IMG/VR virus record: IMGVR_UViG_3300030329_000640
Span: 1 to 35,655 of that record
Source: a virus
Length of the DNA stretch: 35,655 bases
Reading direction: 5' to 3' (one strand)
Shown here: positions 3,083-32,079 of the stretch, piece by piece
How the letters are laid out: the number at the start of each line of letters is the position of its first letter
Numbering within the stretch: position 1 is the first letter of the stretch
The notes under the pieces: model-generated
Seen by the model: the letters and a program-made list of their open reading frames with translations, nothing else
Database searches by the model: none
What the model was told of the DNA's origin: nothing
Position numbers and translations under genes: made by a program

Positions 3083-3310
3083 TTATCCAACCGACTTTAT
3101 CGGCGACTCCGGGTCTTGGAATGGAAGGATTTCCGCAAGATTTAACAGCGGAGAGCCCTCGGTGACGTGGGCGTCGATGCCGTTGTCCTTGAGGAACTTA
3201 ATGGCTGCGGTCAACTCAGCAGCAGTAGCCTCGCCTGACTGGACACGAACAAGTAACTCCTCAGCAATCCCCTGATGGAGTTGGGAAAGGATCTTATCTA
3301 AGTCAGCCAT
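3083..3310 (-). CDS. terS: Terminase small subunit (T7 gp18-like)
   Basis: A 75-residue protein with the helical pattern of T7-like small terminases (EELLVRVQSGEATAAELTAA followed by IKFLKDNGIDA). It should recognise concatemeric DNA and deliver it to the large subunit. The ATG overlaps the stop of the upstream holin-like gene as TAATG, with AAGGAG 8 nt upstream, which makes this start better than an in-frame GTG at 3319. The terminase large gene follows at once. The protein is a little shorter than T7 gp18. Confidence 0.85.
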   Translation of the reverse strand: MADLDKILSQLHQGIAEELLVRVQSGEATAAELTAAIKFLKDNGIDAHVTEGSPLLNLAEILPFQDPESPIKSVG

Positions 3311-3528
3311 TATGACCACTCCTTGAATACTAATGAAATAACAGTTGCAGCAACGGACCCAATGACAGCAGCAGCTCCTAAGATAGCGGAGCGACCTTGC
3401 TCCAATATCCGAATACGCTTATCAAGTACGGTTAGTTCTTCGTCGTGGGCTCGTTGCATATGAAGCAAAGATTCGACTTTGCCTTCTAAGCGACCAAGGG
3501 CCAGAAGGATCTCGCGGGTATCTTCCAT
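3310..3528 (-). CDS. Holin-like coiled-coil/membrane protein, 72 aa
   Basis: An N-terminal amphipathic helix (about residues 1-45, with LGRLEGKVESLL and LDKRIRILEQ) leads into one hydrophobic C-terminal segment (SAILGAAAVIGSVAATVISLVF, about 48-69). This is the layout of XhlA-like or class III-type phage membrane proteins, often annotated as holins. It sits between the fibre and small terminase genes, exactly where T7 encodes its gp17.5 holin. AAGG lies upstream of the ATG. Role in lysis is inferred from topology and position; a second holin candidate exists at 18173-18367. Confidence 0.65.
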   Translation of the reverse strand: MEDTREILLALGRLEGKVESLLHMQRAHDEELTVLDKRIRILEQGRSAILGAAAVIGSVAATVISLVFKEWS

Positions 3529-12616: not shown

Positions 12617-13069
12617 TCAGCGAATCCTTACGATTTCATAAAAGGGAAGACGACCTACGCCGAACTCTGGGTGAAGGTTAATAAACGTAAACCCAAGCCA
12701 GCGAAGCCATCGAATATGTAACGTGTTCCTTGCATCCACATAATTGAAGAGCAGAGGGTAATTTTCGTGGAGGTCATTGAGCCAGTAGTGAGACACCCTT
12801 AAGAACCCCACACGGGCATCATGGATCTTATCGGTGCCTACGAGCCACACACAGCCCACCTCATCCTGGAAATGGGAGACCCCAAAGACAATGAAGGGCT
12901 CATCCTCATACAGGCCAATGTAGGACTTCTCCGATTGCTCGTAACTGAACTGAACAACGTCCTCTGGATCTCTGCCCCCCAAAGCAATAGCCTCGTTGCG
13001 GTCAGCGTCCCGAAGGTGAGTCGCTACCCAATCAACATCCTTCTGAATGGCAGGGATAATTTCAACCAT
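12617..13069 (-). CDS. gp13-like protein (DUF2833, acetyltransferase-like fold)
   Basis: A 150-residue protein located between tail tube B and gp14, the position of T7 gene 13. Recognisable stretches are the N-terminal helix (DVDWVATHLRDADRNEAIAL), the central strand pair (SYIGLYEDEPFIVFGV) and the terminal IRWLRWLGFTFINLHPEFG, which has the look of a GNAT-like or DUF2833 protein. The ATG at 13069 is chosen because it lies just after the stop of tail tube B; a longer frame to 13120 would begin inside that gene. In T7 gp13 is needed for normal virion assembly; acetyltransferase activity is not shown. Confidence 0.75.
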   Translation of the reverse strand: MVEIIPAIQKDVDWVATHLRDADRNEAIALGGRDPEDVVQFSYEQSEKSYIGLYEDEPFIVFGVSHFQDEVGCVWLVGTDKIHDARVGFLRVSHYWLNDLHENYPLLFNYVDARNTLHIRWLRWLGFTFINLHPEFGVGRLPFYEIVRIR

Positions 13070-13073
13070 ATGA

Positions 13074-15554
13074 TCAGACGTGAAGGCCTCGGTCTCGGCG
13101 GGTGTTGACCGACATCTCAAACTCTGCGGCTGTAATAGAACAGGGCAAAGGCGTGTCGTTCTTGCACGTAATCGTTACCTGACTGTTCTTGGAGTATACA
13201 GGCACTCTGAAGTTTCCAGTCTCCAAGGGCACAGAGCCTACCTTGTTCCCACCGGACCCAAGGATTCGGCCTGTAAAGGGGTGAGTGCTTTGATCCCGAT
13301 AGTCTGGGGTAACTTCAACCTTGAAATACCCAGTATCGGAATAGCTCAGGGTCACATAGCGAACCTGAACCCGAGCCTCTGTAATGAGCGTGTTGCCCCC
13401 AGTTCCTGAAGGCTCCCGAAGGACCACATCACTGAACTGGTAAAGCATCTCATAGGCAGTGCCGAGCCAGAAATCTACGCCAGTCAACGAGGACTCCACC
13501 ACGATCTGGTTGGAATCGTTGGTCTGAGTGACCACAGGGATGCGAGCCCCTGCCTTTGTCATCACCTCGATTGTCGTGTTGGTGTAGGCCTTGTACGGCA
13601 TGGTGATTGTCAGCCCATCGCTTGACAGGGAACAGGAAGATTGATCCACCCGGCGATCCAGCAGAGTGCGATACGATACTCCTGTATCGACCAAACCCGA
13701 CTCCATCCTCATCTTATCGAGGAAGATTCCGTCGGCTCGCTTCACCACCATGTAGAGGGCGGTATCAAGGAACTCAATACCCAGGATCGTATCGTTGCTG
13801 GAGAACGTAAAGCGGCTCCAAGCTGATTGCAGCCGTTCGTTCCCAGAGTCGTGGAACTTATAGGCATAAAGAGAGCTACGATCCTCATCGCCCAGTAAGA
13901 ACAAGATGTCCTCATGCGAAGAGCCCGCCATGTCTCGAAGATTGCCTGAGATGTACTGAGGCACTTGTGCAGAGATGTCCGACGCATCAAAGAGCGTAGG
14001 GGTATCCCCAGCTACAAAGTATTGGCGAACTCCACTGTAAGAGCCCCTTGAGAACCCAAAGTAAATCGAGTTCCCAAGGGTCACGGGACGAACATCAGAG
14101 ACCGACTCGTAATTGGTGGTCTTAGTCATCGAGACAGTGCGAGTGCTTAGGGGGACGCCGCTCTGAAGAATGAATTGAGTCTGCTCAGAGAACAGGACCA
14201 ACTGGTTGGCAACAGGGATCGCCGAAGTGAGCAACGAGACGGACCCGTGCGTACTGGCGACATCAATGTTGTCGGTATCTAGGACATCCGTGACGGTAGT
14301 CCGCCAGAAGTTAAAGAACTCACCTGTCTCACTGAGGATGACGTTCTCGTCAGCTAGGAGCCCGAGGCGGTTCTTGAATAGGAAGATGTCATTAAGTTTC
14401 TTGCCCACAAAGGAGGGGTCGGCGTTGCTTACGTCGTCGCCGACGTTTCGCTCGCTCCACAGCGGCAGCTCAGTTGCTCCACCGTCTACAGCACCAAAGA
14501 TAAAGGTGCCGTCAGCCTTCCGTACAAGGACATGGGGCATGGTAGCGGGGTCGAGCTTGTACTTAATAGGGTCGCCTGCTGAGTCCTTGGAGCCTCGGAA
14601 CTCTTCCCAGATGCCCTTGCCGAATACGCCGTCGTCAGCCACAAACTTCACGTAGTAATCATCACGGGTATCCGTGGCATCTCCGACAATCTTGACCCTA
14701 AAGCCGTGAGGGGCTGAGGTCGGTAGATCCGACAGGTGCTGGATCTCATCCTTAATAGCGATCAGCGACGTGTCGCCCTGACCGTCAGCCGCGTCTACGG
14801 TAAAGTCAGTCGTGTCGTCACTCTTGACCCAAAGGACCGAGCCGGACTGTGTAAGAGTTACGCCGCTGTTGGCGTGGAGGCCTCCTCCAGTCAGTGTCTC
14901 CGTTGCGTCACCTTGAGCGGTGCCTGTCCGTAGGCCCGTCACAATCATGTCGGTAGCAATGTCATCCCTATCAGTAGCGACTGCACCATCGGGCGTAAGG
15001 ATCTTGGTGGCATATGTTGTACCTCCCATAGTGACCGTGGCCTCATACATGGAGCCATAGTCACCTTGGGCCAAGTAGAACAAAGCTTCTGGGTTGCGGC
15101 CTGCATCGGTGTCCGACGCCATCGCTACCTTTTGCGTGCGGTTTACAAAGAACGTGTAGTCCGCAATCGTAATGGCCCGTAGATTCGTATCCGCATACGT
15201 AGTGGCATCAGGCATTTGGAGATACGCGGTCGTATTTGGGGTCGCCACGGTTATAGGTTCGCCTGCTAAGTCGTTGACCTTAATGGTCGCCCCTGTGTGA
15301 TCAGCTTTGACGGTAACGATGTACCGCTCACTAATGTCACGATTGATCAGGTGCGTGAAGTAGTCTTCCGTAGCTCCGGGAGTCGCACTATCTAAGTTGG
15401 CAACATGCTCAGTAGGCATACGCTTTGTAAGCCCCTCAAGCACTGAAGGAAAGGCGTTATCCATCGCATCGCATTGGTTATCAAACCGAACAGCGTCCGG
15501 TTGCTGAGATACCCCACCGATGAGATTAGCAATTCCCTTGGAAAGTAAAGCCAT
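13074..15554 (-). CDS. Tail tubular protein B (T7 gp12-like), nozzle
   Basis: An 826-residue protein beginning LLSKGIANLIGGVSQQPDAV, the signature opening of T7 gp12-like nozzle proteins. It should form the hexameric tail nozzle below the gp11-like adaptor, with fibre attachment at their interface. Further typical phrases are FLFKNRLGLLADENVILSET and LFSEQTQFIL. The ATG overlaps the stop of tail tube A as TAATG. Length is close to T7 gp12 (about 794 aa). Confidence 0.95.
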   Translation of the reverse strand: MALLSKGIANLIGGVSQQPDAVRFDNQCDAMDNAFPSVLEGLTKRMPTEHVANLDSATPGATEDYFTHLINRDISERYIVTVKADHTGATIKVNDLAGEPITVATPNTTAYLQMPDATTYADTNLRAITIADYTFFVNRTQKVAMASDTDAGRNPEALFYLAQGDYGSMYEATVTMGGTTYATKILTPDGAVATDRDDIATDMIVTGLRTGTAQGDATETLTGGGLHANSGVTLTQSGSVLWVKSDDTTDFTVDAADGQGDTSLIAIKDEIQHLSDLPTSAPHGFRVKIVGDATDTRDDYYVKFVADDGVFGKGIWEEFRGSKDSAGDPIKYKLDPATMPHVLVRKADGTFIFGAVDGGATELPLWSERNVGDDVSNADPSFVGKKLNDIFLFKNRLGLLADENVILSETGEFFNFWRTTVTDVLDTDNIDVASTHGSVSLLTSAIPVANQLVLFSEQTQFILQSGVPLSTRTVSMTKTTNYESVSDVRPVTLGNSIYFGFSRGSYSGVRQYFVAGDTPTLFDASDISAQVPQYISGNLRDMAGSSHEDILFLLGDEDRSSLYAYKFHDSGNERLQSAWSRFTFSSNDTILGIEFLDTALYMVVKRADGIFLDKMRMESGLVDTGVSYRTLLDRRVDQSSCSLSSDGLTITMPYKAYTNTTIEVMTKAGARIPVVTQTNDSNQIVVESSLTGVDFWLGTAYEMLYQFSDVVLREPSGTGGNTLITEARVQVRYVTLSYSDTGYFKVEVTPDYRDQSTHPFTGRILGSGGNKVGSVPLETGNFRVPVYSKNSQVTITCKNDTPLPCSITAAEFEMSVNTRRDRGLHV

Positions 15555-18172: not shown

Positions 18173-18367
18173 TTAAGAAGCTTCCCTTTTCAAAGTAAGG
18201 CGGGCTCCCGTGTAACCAAGTGCAACGAGTGCGGACTCAACAAGCCCAACAATCTGACCAGTTGCACCTTCAATAGGGAGGACGCCACTTGCGACAAAGG
18301 CTCCAAGAGCCACAGCAGCAAGAGCGAGATAGAACTCTGTCGTCTTGTATCCAGGTTTACTCGGCAT
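18173..18367 (-). CDS. Holin-like protein, 64 aa, two membrane segments
   Basis: The sequence starts SKPGYKTTEFYLALAAVALG and contains two hydrophobic segments, about residues 11-30 and 38-54, separated by a short hydrophilic turn, with a basic C-terminus (LTLKREAS). This KTTEFWLTLA-type opening and layout are typical of a small phage holin family seen in many proteobacterial phages. It would form inner-membrane lesions that release the endolysin. AGGAAT precedes the ATG. It lies far from the endolysin gene, as is usual in T7-like genomes. Confidence 0.75.
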   Translation of the reverse strand: MPSKPGYKTTEFYLALAAVALGAFVASGVLPIEGATGQIVGLVESALVALGYTGARLTLKREAS

Positions 18368-24645: not shown

Positions 24646-24866
24646 AGGTCTTCCAAGATCAGAGGGGTTTGCTCACCACACCACAAGCACTCGATATTGA
24701 AGCTGTAGTATTCTTCAGCTTCCTCACGCGTCATGCCTTGCTGTTGAAGAGTTGTGATAATCTTCGCCTGTGAATAAACAGCCACCGGCTCTCGGGACCA
24801 CTGGCTGCCAAAGCCGAGGAGTGCGGAGTCCAGCCCATCAAAGACAATGGCGTTATCTTGGCTCAT
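24642..24866 (-). CDS. Small conserved protein upstream of polymerase, 74 aa
   Basis: A 74-residue protein with the pattern FDGLDSALLGFGSQWSREPV, then VYSQAKIITTLQQQGMTREE and AEEYYSFNIECLWCGEQTPL. This matches a family of unknown function common in T7-like and other marine phages (typically D-A-LGF, Y----I---L---GM--EEA-EYF-FNI). It is joined to both neighbours by ATGA overlaps, so it belongs to the DNA polymerase translation unit. The function is unknown. Confidence 0.75.
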   Translation of the reverse strand: MSQDNAIVFDGLDSALLGFGSQWSREPVAVYSQAKIITTLQQQGMTREEAEEYYSFNIECLWCGEQTPLILEDL

Positions 24867-25138
24867 AAATCATCCGGGCTTATCAGCCCCTCCTCACACA
24901 TCCACTCTCGGATCACCGGGTCGTCCATCAAAGCGTTCCGCAGCTTCTGGAGTGCTTGGTAACAAATGCTCTGTAGGTGCTGGCGGGTGTATGTGCGACC
25001 AGTTGTCACCTTCAGGTGCTCGCCGATCTGATCCCAACTCCAACTGCCTCTTGACTCGTAGCCAGTAGGCGTCAGTTCCCGCTTTCCAAGGACCACGCGG
25101 TCCCCCATTCCAGGTTCTTGCCATCGTTTCAAAGTCAT
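24863..25138 (-). CDS. HTH protein resembling sigma-70 region 4
   Basis: The C-terminal part (SWSWDQIGEHLKVTTGRTYT, then RQHLQSICYQALQKLRNALM, DDPVIREWM) follows the pattern of sigma-70 region 4 or related HTH domains, where W-I---L-VT/S---R-I---AL-KLR is typical. The N-terminal 30 residues are not distinctive and the true start may be internal; no good ribosome-binding site is seen before the ATG at 25138. About 245 nt overlap the endolysin frame. It could be a transcription modulator acting on host or phage polymerase; that is inference. Confidence 0.55.
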   Translation of the reverse strand: MTLKRWQEPGMGDRVVLGKRELTPTGYESRGSWSWDQIGEHLKVTTGRTYTRQHLQSICYQALQKLRNALMDDPVIREWMCEEGLISPDDL

Positions 25139-25610
25139 CGTTAGGAGCCCATCTATCGAGATACGCCCAGAAGATTCGCTTGGCGTACTCTAGGTTCTTG
25201 CAATCCTCATAACGTCCTCCCAACGCCATGTCGTGTTCGATGGCATCCTGCCAACAAGCACGCGATATCTGAAGGGGGCCAATCGATCGGCCACCATCAC
25301 CTACTGCATTCTCTGGGTCGGGGTGCCCCCCGGTCTCTACCATCCGCACGGCTTCAAAGAGACTAAAAGGGAACATCATCCACATATGCTTCGTTCCATT
25401 CGTGGAGGCGTCCGGTGCGAGAGTCGTACTTGACGCTACAGGCAACTCCGGTGTCTCCGGTGTATCGGTTCTTAAGGACTCTGAGGGTCGTGATGTTCTT
25501 ACGTTCTTCGTCTTGCTGATCCCTCTCCAGCCCGATGCAGATATCAGATAGCTGAGCAATAGCACCACTACCCCGCAAGTGACTAAGAGATACGTGCCCA
25601 CCTTCTTCAT
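24894..25610 (-). CDS. Endolysin, lytic-transglycosylase type, possibly with signal anchor
   Basis: The catalytic domain has a Glu in FEAVRMVETGG, followed by GGRSIGPLQIS and FETMARTWNGGPRG, the pattern of lysozyme-like transglycosylases. The frame opens at 25610 with MKKVGTYLLVTCGVVVLLLS, a basic start plus a weakly hydrophobic stretch to about residue 27, then a Ser/Thr/Pro linker to about residue 75. This would be a signal-arrest-release or secretory N-terminus, with GGGAGAAG just before the ATG, but it lies inside the helicase gene in another frame. A short form from ATG 25385 (163 aa) would be cytoplasmic and holin-dependent. The last 47 residues look unlike a folded domain and overlap the HTH gene. 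Confidence 0.75.
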   Translation of the reverse strand: MKKVGTYLLVTCGVVVLLLSYLISASGWRGISKTKNVRTSRPSESLRTDTPETPELPVASSTTLAPDASTNGTKHMWMMFPFSLFEAVRMVETGGHPDPENAVGDGGRSIGPLQISRACWQDAIEHDMALGGRYEDCKNLEYAKRIFWAYLDRWAPNDDFETMARTWNGGPRGPWKAGTDAYWLRVKRQLELGSDRRAPEGDNWSHIHPPAPTEHLLPSTPEAAERFDGRPGDPRVDV

Positions 25611-26976
25611 GGCTTCTCCCTTCGGGTCGTTTGAGATGTGAGACGATGACGAGGGCGATCTGAAGCTCTTCCACTAACGACCGGAGGCGGGTCATCGTGT
25701 TGTCTATCAGTCGCCGCTCGTCACCATCACCAATACCTGAAACCACGATACTCAAGTGATCCAGGAATATGTGCGTGCAGCCCATGCCGCGAGCCATGTA
25801 GCGTATGCGGCTCAACAGGTTTGCACTTTCCAACGAGCCCCAATGGTCGTACAGAACGCAGCGACCATTGCCCACCGTGGCCTCGAAGGCTTCCCTCTTC
25901 GTCTCTTCCGTCACCTCTTCCTGCCCCCACTTGAATGGGGGGATCTCCATATGAAGACCCATAAGGCACTCGGCTGATTGTTTGACGTTCTCTTCCAACG
26001 CCACAATCCCTACCCGATGCCCTTTGTTCAGCAGCCATAGCTGCCACTCTCGGCACACGCTACTCTTCCCAAGCCCCGTGCCACTGGAGAGGGTGACGAC
26101 CTCCCCTTGTCGGAGCCCATACGTCTTTTCATTCAAGCCAGCCCACGGGTACTCAACGCTCTCCTGATCCCGCTCCTCAATGATGCGTTCCCACAGCTCC
26201 TCACCGGGGACCACGCCATCAGGGCGGTAGGCCTTTGCTTCCCAGATGGCAGAGATCAACTCCTTAGTCCGACCGGCTACCAGCATTTCATTTGGGTCGT
26301 TGAGGGGGAGGGACGCTATAGCCGCCTTGCCCGGTGAGAGCAGTAGCGCACACTCGACTGCTGCCTTCTGTCCCGGCTCATCCTGATCCAGCATGAAGAC
26401 AACAAGGTCAAAGCTTTCCAGCCACTCTAAGTGCTGGCGGATTACCTTGGCAGCCCCGGCTGCACCGGAAGGTACAGACACTACAGGCCATCGATTGTTC
26501 TGCGCTTGGGAAACCGACATCGCGTCGATCTCCCCCTCTGTGACCACTAACTTCTTTCCCCCCTCGCCCCATAGGCGCATGCCCCACAGGCCGAGGTTCT
26601 TCCCCTCGCCAAGAATTGCGAAGTCCTTGTCTTTAGTTCGTACCTTCTGGGCAACCACCGCACCCTCTTCGTTGCGGTAGTTAGCTACCTGCACCGGCTT
26701 GCCCTTCCACTCCCCAGTTCCATACGAGAACTTTCGGCAAGTGTCTGTGGAGATGCCCCGCTTAACTAACGGCCCATACTCGAACGTGATCATGCCGCCA
26801 GAGTGGGGAGTCTGTTCTACCACCTTCACCGTTCCTTCAGTTTCCAGGTGGCCGCACCCAAAGCAGTAGCCATGGCCGTCATCGTAGCGGGCCAAGTTGT
26901 CCCGGCTGCCACAGGAGGGACAAGGCTCGTGAGCTACAAACTCACTCTCACGATCATCCAAGGACATAGCGAGCAT
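25363..26976 (-). CDS. Primase-helicase (T7 gp4-like)
   Basis: A 537-residue bifunctional replication protein. The N-terminal zinc-binding domain has CPSC (19-22) and CFGC (38-41); the Toprim primase core has VVTEGEIDAMS (about 144-154) and FMLDQDEPGQ (about 194-203). The helicase domain has Walker A SSGTGLGKSS (about 297-306), IFLDHLSIVVSG (Walker B) and LSHLRGSGAIAQLSD (about 465-480). The acidic/aromatic ending VDDVPF resembles the T7 gp4 tail that contacts DNA polymerase. It overlaps the HTH gene upstream by 23 nt; ATG at 26967 is an alternative. Its last 248 nt also carry the endolysin N-terminus in another frame. Confidence 0.96.
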   Translation of the reverse strand: MLAMSLDDRESEFVAHEPCPSCGSRDNLARYDDGHGYCFGCGHLETEGTVKVVEQTPHSGGMITFEYGPLVKRGISTDTCRKFSYGTGEWKGKPVQVANYRNEEGAVVAQKVRTKDKDFAILGEGKNLGLWGMRLWGEGGKKLVVTEGEIDAMSVSQAQNNRWPVVSVPSGAAGAAKVIRQHLEWLESFDLVVFMLDQDEPGQKAAVECALLLSPGKAAIASLPLNDPNEMLVAGRTKELISAIWEAKAYRPDGVVPGEELWERIIEERDQESVEYPWAGLNEKTYGLRQGEVVTLSSGTGLGKSSVCREWQLWLLNKGHRVGIVALEENVKQSAECLMGLHMEIPPFKWGQEEVTEETKREAFEATVGNGRCVLYDHWGSLESANLLSRIRYMARGMGCTHIFLDHLSIVVSGIGDGDERRLIDNTMTRLRSLVEELQIALVIVSHLKRPEGRSHEEGGHVSLSHLRGSGAIAQLSDICIGLERDQQDEERKNITTLRVLKNRYTGDTGVACSVKYDSRTGRLHEWNEAYVDDVPF

Positions 26977-30856: not shown

Positions 30857-31900
30857 TCAAGCCCATACCACATTGGCAAGCGAAAGACTAGCGGGTCCGC
30901 TGGGCTCCAACAAGTTCACCGCGTCCACTAAGTTATGAGGGGCTAGGTGAGCGTACCGAAGCGTGGTCTCAAGGGACAAATGCCCGGCTAACTCCTTCAC
31001 AGTAAGGATGGGAACACCACGCTGCACTAACCTGGAGCAGAACGTATGACGTAACGCATGCGGCACGGCCTCCTTATCGTTGGCCCATTCCATATGCAAC
31101 CGAAGTCTATCCCACCAGTTGCGGATATGCCCCGCAGTTGCCCACTTGAATGGCCCTTGCTTGTGGAGCCGCATAGCTTCCACAGCAGCACGGGCTGCCT
31201 TGGTCATCGGGACGCCACGAGGTGATCCAGACTTGGAGTCTGGCAAGATCACAAAGTCCCCTTGGATATCCTGCCACTCAAGACTGCGAGTCTCCCCACA
31301 CCTGAAGCCCGTGTCCGCTTGAAACCTCACCCAATGAGCAAAGTCTGAATGCCCCAAATGATTGAAGTATGCCGTCATCTCCCGAAGCTCATCGTCGGTA
31401 AACCATCGGATACGCCCCACCTTCTCGGTACGCTTCGTGACCTTGGGCTTAGAATCAATGATGCCTAAGTCCTTGGCAATCGTCAGGCACTTAGACAACG
31501 CCGCTAACTTTCGATTGATTGTCCCATTCCCAAGCCCCTCGGCCTGAAGCCCTAACGTCAGCCGGTCAATCATGAACAAGTCCACCGACTTAATAGGCGT
31601 ATGGGCTCCCAAGATATCACAGCACTTCAAGGCATTCCGGTGGCTGTCCGCCCCAGACTTCTGCCCGCTCCAGTGATTGCGATACGTGTACTCGACAATC
31701 TCGCCAAGGGTCTTGGGCTTGCCGGGCTCCGCTCGCTGGGGAGTGTCCCCCATATCAGGGAGACGGCCAGCCACTAAGTCAGCCTTCGCCTGTGCAGCCC
31801 ATATCTCAGCGTCTTCAAAGGTTCCAAAGCGTCTACGCTTCCGCACGCCCTTGTGGACTACGGTAGCCTGAAAGGTACGGCCATCGGCTCGTATGCTCAT
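30857..31900 (-). CDS. int: Tyrosine-family integrase
   Basis: A 347-residue recombinase. The N-terminal arm-binding domain (TFQATVVHKGVRKRRRFGTF) is followed by a SAM-like core-binding domain (about 63-150) and the catalytic domain with Arg 200 (TGFRCGETRSLEW), Lys 223, His 281 and Arg 284 (HALRHTF), His 307 (LAGHLSLETT) and Tyr 316 (LRYAHL). The complete catalytic set implies activity. The ATG at 31900 has TGGAGAAAC 4 nt upstream; a longer frame to 32005 would translate through a strong hairpin and lacks a ribosome-binding site. The gene ends 12 nt before tRNA-Leu, the expected attachment site. Confidence 0.95.
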   Translation of the reverse strand: MSIRADGRTFQATVVHKGVRKRRRFGTFEDAEIWAAQAKADLVAGRLPDMGDTPQRAEPGKPKTLGEIVEYTYRNHWSGQKSGADSHRNALKCCDILGAHTPIKSVDLFMIDRLTLGLQAEGLGNGTINRKLAALSKCLTIAKDLGIIDSKPKVTKRTEKVGRIRWFTDDELREMTAYFNHLGHSDFAHWVRFQADTGFRCGETRSLEWQDIQGDFVILPDSKSGSPRGVPMTKAARAAVEAMRLHKQGPFKWATAGHIRNWWDRLRLHMEWANDKEAVPHALRHTFCSRLVQRGVPILTVKELAGHLSLETTLRYAHLAPHNLVDAVNLLEPSGPASLSLANVVWA

Positions 31901-31947
31901 TCGAGTTTCTCCAGGATAATAAGGTGATAAGGATATTTGGCAACAAA

Positions 31948-31987
31948 GAGCCCCCGCCGATCCAGTTGACCAGAAGGGCGGGGGCTC
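31948..31987 (-). terminator. Strong hairpin between early genes and integrase
   Basis: A perfect 11-bp GC-rich stem (GAGCCCCCGCC / GGCGGGGGCTC) with an 18-nt loop; on the minus strand TTTGTTG follows. It should stop or attenuate early transcription before the integrase, or act as a processing site, letting integrase be regulated separately from the early operon. Confidence 0.65.
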
Positions 31988-32001
31988 AGGAGAAACCAAA
32001 G

Positions 32002-32079
32002 TCATGTATCAGGTAACAGTATACCAATAATCATACAGGCCAGAGTTCCGGCTCCGATGAGGGCCAGCACAGTAATCAA
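32002..32079 (-). CDS. 25-residue membrane micropeptide (TTG start)
   Basis: The frame runs from a TTG that overlaps the stop of the 71-aa gene (TTGA) and reads MITVLALIGAGTLACMIIGI then LLPDT. Almost the whole peptide is hydrophobic, long enough for one membrane helix. A GGGGTGG ribosome-binding sequence lies 4-10 nt upstream. It is the last frame before the strong hairpin preceding the integrase. Very short single-span proteins are common in phage early regions, where they may act on the membrane or host enzymes; the function here is unknown and the call rests on coupling and composition. Confidence 0.4.
   Translation of the reverse strand: MITVLALIGAGTLACMIIGILLPDT

Follow-up and report, generated by a model that had tools for sequence, protein, structure and literature searches.

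A T7-like phage lysozyme gene with its predicted membrane signal in a second frame of the primase-helicase gene

Overprinted lysis genes, signal-arrest-release (SAR) endolysins and gene 4.2 of phage T7 are each already known. In phiX174, the textbook case, gene E lies within gene D, and T in the third codon positions of gene D makes the lysis membrane segment encoded by the second frame hydrophobic (PMC8227390). The SAR endolysins of the T7-like phages phiKMV and JG068 require their N-terminal signal, and the lysis of E. coli by that of JG068 depends on it (PMC3765740, PMC6115819). As for gene 4.2, its ORFs carry ribosome sites in published annotation (PMC4925675) and 493 phage records match its product gp4.2; our search of the open-licence PMC literature found no function for it.

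The window studied here, a stretch of 35,655 nucleotides corresponding to positions 1 to 35,655 of IMG/VR record IMGVR_UViG_3300030329_000640, comes from a T7-like phage of the Autographiviridae type, with a single-subunit RNA polymerase, a DNA polymerase and a primase-helicase. Its lysin gene starts inside the helicase gene, and a family of aquatic T7-like phages shares this predicted lysin signal overprinted on the helicase.

Layout of the overlap and nature of the enzyme

All features of the overlap are on the minus strand of the window (Table 1). The first-pass annotation of this DNA, made from the letters alone, had noticed that the lysin frame stays open for 82 codons within the 3' end of the helicase gene, and we confirmed its coordinates: the ORF runs from 25610 to 24894, and its frame is the +1 frame of the helicase. 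The Shine-Dalgarno sequence (SD) that it placed ahead of the ATG, the hydrophobic N-terminus and the 163-aa form from 25385 are likewise correct in the sequence. The long form begins MKKVGTYLLVTCGVVVLLLSYLISASGWRG... and is preceded by gaagggagaagccATG; the helicase peptide PEGRSHEEG spells both the SD and the ATG of the lysin (gaaggGAGaagccATGaagaag).

Table 1. Features of the helicase-lysin overlap and its surroundings, in window coordinates
Feature	Position	Strand	Remarks
T7-type primase-helicase gene, 537 aa	25363..26976	-	phrog_239 DNA primase/helicase, E 1.5e-182; DnaB_C, Helic-prim_T7_N; host frame of the overlap
Lysin gene, long form, 238 aa, ATG start	24894..25610	-	helicase +1 frame; same layout in 27 relatives
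Shine-Dalgarno sequence GAAGGGAG	25616..25623	-	written by helicase PEGR codons, 5 nt before the ATG; duplex -8.4 kcal/mol
Helicase HEEG motif	25600..25611	-	CAT GAA GAA GG gives ATG AAR AAR (MKK) in +1; equals the T7 gene 4.2 start
Predicted hydrophobic signal/anchor segment of the lysin, residues 8-25, LLVTCGVVVLLLSYLISA	25536..25589	-	overlies the helicase LRGSGAIAQLSD motif
Polar linker rich in Ser/Thr/Pro, residues 27-78	25377..25532	-	inside the overlap; disordered in a low-confidence model
ATG of a possible 163-aa short cytoplasmic form	25383..25385	-	weak SD, -3.3
Predicted i-type (destabilase) lysozyme catalytic domain, residues 80-191	25038..25373	-	by profile, PF05497 and domain model
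Small ORF, sigma-70 region-4-like HTH	24863..25138	-	overlaps the lysin 3' end; assigned by eye, no family match

By profile and by predicted fold, the domain encoded past the overlap is an i-type (destabilase) lysozyme. PF05497 is matched in 48 of 53 homologues (best E 6.8e-12; 0.11 for the window sequence alone), and a profile comparison of the catalytic domain with PDB 8bbu gives E 1.5e-18. The AlphaFold model of the domain (pLDDT 86.8) is placed by Foldseek on leech destabilase with a TM score of 0.72-0.81, with nothing but destabilase and bivalve i-type lysozymes among the top matches (E 1.7e-5 to 2.7e-3). Across the 53 homologues neither E92 nor D98 varies, and E92 aligns with the Glu of the family; D105 is not invariant whereas D98 is, which does not fix the identity of the second catalytic acid. 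A hydrophobic N-terminal signal of their own is found in 25 of the 28 free-standing relatives of the lysozyme, as well as in the annotated lysozyme of the cultured Cellulophaga phage Calle_1. Since the free-standing relatives mostly have such signals, the family appears to be normally exported, and here the signal sits in the helicase gene. A tblastn search in cultured phages returned nothing beyond distant Cellulophaga phage lysozymes, and a profile search of genome contigs with the lysin alignment found no relative.

Equivalents of the small HTH ORF stand behind the lysin or the helicase in three other loci (L013, L008 and L094). Elsewhere in the window, a tyrosine integrase gene (30857-32005, minus strand) lies beside the T7-type RNA polymerase gene, which suggests a temperate T7-like phage.

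The second frame in helicases with and without the lysin

We fetched 80 helicase loci and 75 + 80 lysin loci from IMG/VR and read all their frames. Dereplication at 95% gave 25 helicases with the lysin directly behind a HEEG-type start and 38 without lysin. Two carriers found later (L187 and L207) are open as well, which makes 27/27 distinct lysin carriers of this layout in which the +1 frame runs uninterrupted from the HEEG ATG to the end of the helicase. The 25 carriers analysed in detail, among them one (L128) with ACG at the HEEG start codon and the nearest ATG four codons upstream, have no stop in the 2107 codons of the +1 overlap, against 4.56 per 100 codons upstream in the same genes (423/9273) and 6.88 per 100 when the overlap is read in +2 (145/2107). 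In lysin-less helicases the +1 frame of this stretch contains 5.12 stops per 100 codons, and each of the 38 is closed, by 1-11 stops. Closed frames are found even in near sisters of carriers on the helicase tree (L015, sister to L094, and L008, sister to the L012 group), which have no lysin and a decayed frame. The first-pass annotation had stated that dual coding would be refuted by relatives with a conserved helicase and stop codons in this frame upstream of 25385; such stops occur only where the lysin is missing, and in no carrier with the lysin behind the HEEG-derived ATG. The tree provides merely 4-5 independent contrasts, none of them opposite, which are too few for a sign test, so that significance has to rest on tests made within genes.

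The relation between the two frames makes such tests possible in a direct manner. The third base of a helicase codon always occupies the middle of a lysin codon. A substitution there that is silent for the helicase thus necessarily changes the lysin residue, and T at this position encodes Phe, Leu, Ile, Met or Val in the lysin. In carriers, third-position T more than doubles over the hydrophobic segment, from 0.235 to 0.513 (p 6e-8), whereas in non-carriers it goes merely from 0.27 to 0.31 over the same segment. When only residues that permit a T are counted, its frequency in the segment versus the rest is 0.58 versus 0.31 in carriers and 0.35 versus 0.34 in non-carriers. The enrichment has the same direction in 14/14 carrier sub-clades (p 1.2e-4), and the window itself shows third-position T of 0.65 in the segment and 0.16 upstream. 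We also redrew helicase codons synonymously, following the codon usage of each gene. The +1 frame of the window was left open in 1.3% of the draws, and its hydrophobicity (maximum KD over 17 residues, 2.51) was matched in 0/5000; redraws matching the observed hydrophobicity amount to less than 1% for most carriers, versus about 50% for typical non-carriers.

Selection seems to extend to both sides of the segment. At codons 0-5 (ATG AAR AAR), pairs of genes with the same residue use the same codon in 75% of cases among carriers and 42% among non-carriers, and the SD before the HEEG ATG is stronger in carriers (p 4e-4). Over the linker, C is raised and G lowered at helicase third positions compared with elsewhere in these genes. 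We had considered the Ser/Thr/Pro linker as a mere by-product of C-rich third positions, and discarded this idea because the shift is confined to carriers, which makes some selection on the linker likely.

These data bear directly on the possibility that the short cytoplasmic form from 25385 is the sole product, the open and hydrophobic +1 frame being a by-product of codon usage and conserved motifs in the helicase. MKK and the SD do derive from helicase PEGxxHEEG, the ATG is also present in many lysin-less helicases, and the chance of an open frame in single genes is not tiny (P(open) up to 0.15). However, the lysin-less helicases are closed in 38/38 cases despite encoding nearly the same peptide (L008 shares the motif peptide of carriers exactly and has 5 stops), the T enrichment is restricted to carriers and to the segment, two carriers have re-made the signal elsewhere (L147 and L241, see below), and one, L102, has no start codon for the short form. 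The first-pass annotation had kept the cytoplasmic form as its alternative; these observations contradict it, and we consider it very improbable that nothing else is made.

A fusion of helicase and lysin through ribosomal frameshifting into +1, without initiation at the ATG, is harder still to credit. It is true that every carrier has some open +1 codons ahead of the ATG. Yet this open run is brief and of differing length (5-27 codons, median 13), and an MKK start followed by a hydrophobic N-terminus would be purposeless in a fusion. With stops as near as 6 codons upstream of the ATG, openness is conserved only from the ATG onward, and we rejected the fusion on these grounds.

The criterion for overprinting, a second frame whose conservation exceeds what the helicase frame requires, is thus fulfilled. 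As far as sequence comparison can show, selection maintains both the second frame and its hydrophobicity, the frame accompanies the lysin, and the dual-coding reading of the first-pass annotation is supported by an open frame and a third-position T bias that are specific to carriers.

The exceptions are instructive. At first sight L147 is a counter-example, with a stop in the old frame and AEEG in place of HEEG, by which the ATG is lost. Its lysin start has instead moved downstream to 4112, 51 codons inside the helicase and in the same frame, with an SD of -8.5 and the N-terminus MKTIPQLSVFLKTATTAVLVLLAFWFG...; the new hydrophobic segment differs from the old one, and third-position T there is again 0.50. 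We therefore read L147 as a relocated signal. In L241, FEEG replaces HEEG, the ATG is lost and the old frame is closed; a new in-frame lysin start lies further downstream, 95 nt before the helicase end (about 31 codons inside), with a new hydrophobic segment, MNKIHTSVLMIISLLLMTTHASQ. So, judging from these two sequences, when the old start is lost a membrane signal is made anew elsewhere in the overlap.

The opposite situation is found in L011 and L014, where the lysin domain is gone through a 244-nt deletion relative to the near-identical L013 and the +1 frame is still open. The helicase 3' end of L011 is identical to that of L013. An open frame without lysin counts against our interpretation, and may reflect either recent loss or another use of the frame. 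In both loci the overprinted lysin N-terminus is now fused in frame to the HTH gene (L011:5355-5867 and L014:3653-4165). On the whole, given that the relatives are not independent sequences, the strength of the evidence lies in the within-gene controls, the consistency among sub-clades and the two relocations.

Membrane targeting, release and a possible short form

We propose that ribosomes would initiate at 25610, on an ATG and an SD that the helicase peptide PEGRSHEEG happens to spell. Translation in +1 would then yield a tip with positive charge, a hydrophobic helix of 18 residues and a polar linker, with the i-type lysozyme following past the helicase stop. The helix would direct the lysin to the Sec machinery and keep it tethered in the inner membrane, the lysozyme lying in the periplasm, as a signal anchor of the kind found in SAR endolysins, and release or activation would most probably come when the phage depolarises the membrane. 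We regard it as highly probable, and as the best explanation, that 25610 is the functional start and that the long form is Sec-targeted, most likely as a SAR-like signal-anchor endolysin. Translation of the long form, its export or membrane targeting and its SAR-like control are inferred, in the absence of proteomic, ribosome-profiling or fractionation data: all the evidence comes from comparing sequences, and none for the long form is at the protein level. The topology of the membrane segment, in particular, rests on hydropathy and on a low-confidence model alone (the full-length AlphaFold model is poor, with pLDDT 52 and a helix at residues 4-26).

The first-pass annotation had seen in the first residues a signal-arrest-release or secretory N-terminus. 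Its charge and hydrophobicity are indeed present and under selection. In SAR endolysins the hydrophobic segment behind the charged tip stays uncleaved; for this lysin a released, a cleaved or a permanent anchor is possible. Known SAR enzymes are compact, unlike this lysin, in which a linker of about 50 residues separates the helix from the catalytic domain. An ordinary signal peptide, cleaved to leave a free periplasmic lysozyme in place of an anchored SAR-like one, is a possibility that we keep, although we think it rather unlikely. Classical signal peptides do occur in L241 and in free-standing relatives (THA-S, AVA-V, SQA-A), and small residues follow the helix in some carriers, with possible cleavage sites in L089 (FASA-W) and in the window (ISAS-G). 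But no signal-peptidase motif (AxA) is conserved after the helix among HEEG-type carriers, and in L087, L091 and L104 the invariant W comes after residues such as D, P and L. The helix, of 16-20 strongly hydrophobic residues, is anchor-like, and a free periplasmic lysozyme made alongside replication genes would risk early lysis.

The signal-anchor reading does not require that the long form be the only product. A pair made from one frame, with an anchored long form from 25610 and a cytoplasmic, holin-dependent short form from 25385 that together set the timing of lysis, can be envisaged tentatively. Most carriers have an ATG 15 codons ahead of the catalytic Glu, the SD at this second ATG is very strong in some (-10.2 kcal/mol in L094, -12.2 in L096 and -10.3 in L131), and the window has two holin-like small membrane ORFs. 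However, the acidic tail of the helicase (DDVPF-type) would spell ATGs and SD-like GAGGAG runs by chance, the SD of the short form is weak in the window itself, and L099, L108 and L109 have only GTG or TTG at the short-form start. In L102 there is no ATG, GTG or TTG from 37 codons before the catalytic Glu up to the domain, so the short form cannot be universal. A short product is possible in lineages whose second ATG is preceded by a strong SD.

The window contains two small ORFs that resemble holins, both on the minus strand. One (18173-18367) encodes 64 aa with two hydrophobic segments and a basic C-terminus, has an SD of -5.2 and no family match, and fits the description of phiKMV/JG068 pinholins in PMC3765740, which makes it a pinholin candidate. 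The other (3310-3528) encodes 72 aa with a coiled coil and a C-terminal membrane segment, has a weak match to phrog_1103 (E 3e-4), and lies between tail and terminase genes, which is the position of the T7 holin.

Gene 4.2 and other known systems

The closest parallel is in T7 itself. Gene 4.2 (phrog_5140, Studiervirinae) starts at the homologous HEEG ATG, in the same +1 frame, overlaps the helicase by 92-96 codons and has a hydrophobic N-terminus, all of which is lysin-like. Its frame is open in 9/9 T7-like phages that we read (L086:1989-2327, equivalent to T7 12988-13326, and L159-L166) and unannotated in many, such as T3 and several Klebsiella phages; in the nine, third-position T is 0.47-0.59 in the segment versus 0.19-0.31 upstream. 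Unlike the lysin, gp4.2 (about 100-137 aa) stands alone, lacks a lysozyme and contains a further hydrophobic stretch. Judging from its sequence, it is probably a real membrane protein with two segments, for which no function is known. The lysin N-terminus matches the phrog_5140/gp4.2 profile (E 4.5e-4 to 3e-3), and the match does not extend over the whole length: residues 1-34 alone are aligned (E 0.0019), and the lysin runs on into the lysozyme. This does not prove that the lysin N-terminus descends from gp4.2, since +1 translation of homologous helicase DNA yields similar peptides in any case.

It is tempting to go one step further, in a speculation that we think has less than an even chance of being correct. 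PEGxxHEEG may be a built-in internal ribosome start of T7-type phages, used repeatedly for +1 membrane peptides: for gp4.2, and for a lysozyme anchor that would have arisen when a captured lysozyme domain was joined to an overprinted membrane peptide already in place. Where the second start is strong, the phage would then make both an anchored and a cytoplasmic lysozyme, as a lysis timer tied to helicase expression.

We found no earlier description, in the open-licence PMC literature, of endolysins overlapping in this way or of the link with gene 4.2. As far as these searches show, an endolysin of which the export domain alone is dual-coded in an essential and highly conserved replication gene is undescribed. 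Such an arrangement implies that an enzyme can acquire a membrane anchor without new DNA, and the carriers, recent losers and re-inventors of the signal constitute a clean natural experiment. It also predicts that members of this lysin family are frequently annotated in truncated form, and gives a hint, based on selection, that gp4.2 of T7 is a real membrane protein.

Among other T7-like phages, phiKMV and JG068 (Autographiviridae) share with our phage an N-terminal signal-anchor on a lysozyme. Their SAR endolysin genes belong to late lysis cassettes and, unlike the lysin, are not overprinted on the helicase; the passages of PMC3765740 and PMC6115819 on these endolysins describe no i-type lysozyme. 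Leech destabilase and the i-type lysozymes (PDB 8bbu, 2dqa and 4pj2), with which the lysin domain has fold and profile in common, are secreted animal enzymes, whereas the phage version has a dual-coded anchor and a linker. Finally, in phiX174 the T bias is genome-wide, and in lysin carriers the enrichment is local to the segment. The E protein inhibits cell-wall synthesis and its whole gene lies inside another, whereas in the lysin, a murein hydrolase, overprinting is limited to the targeting domain.
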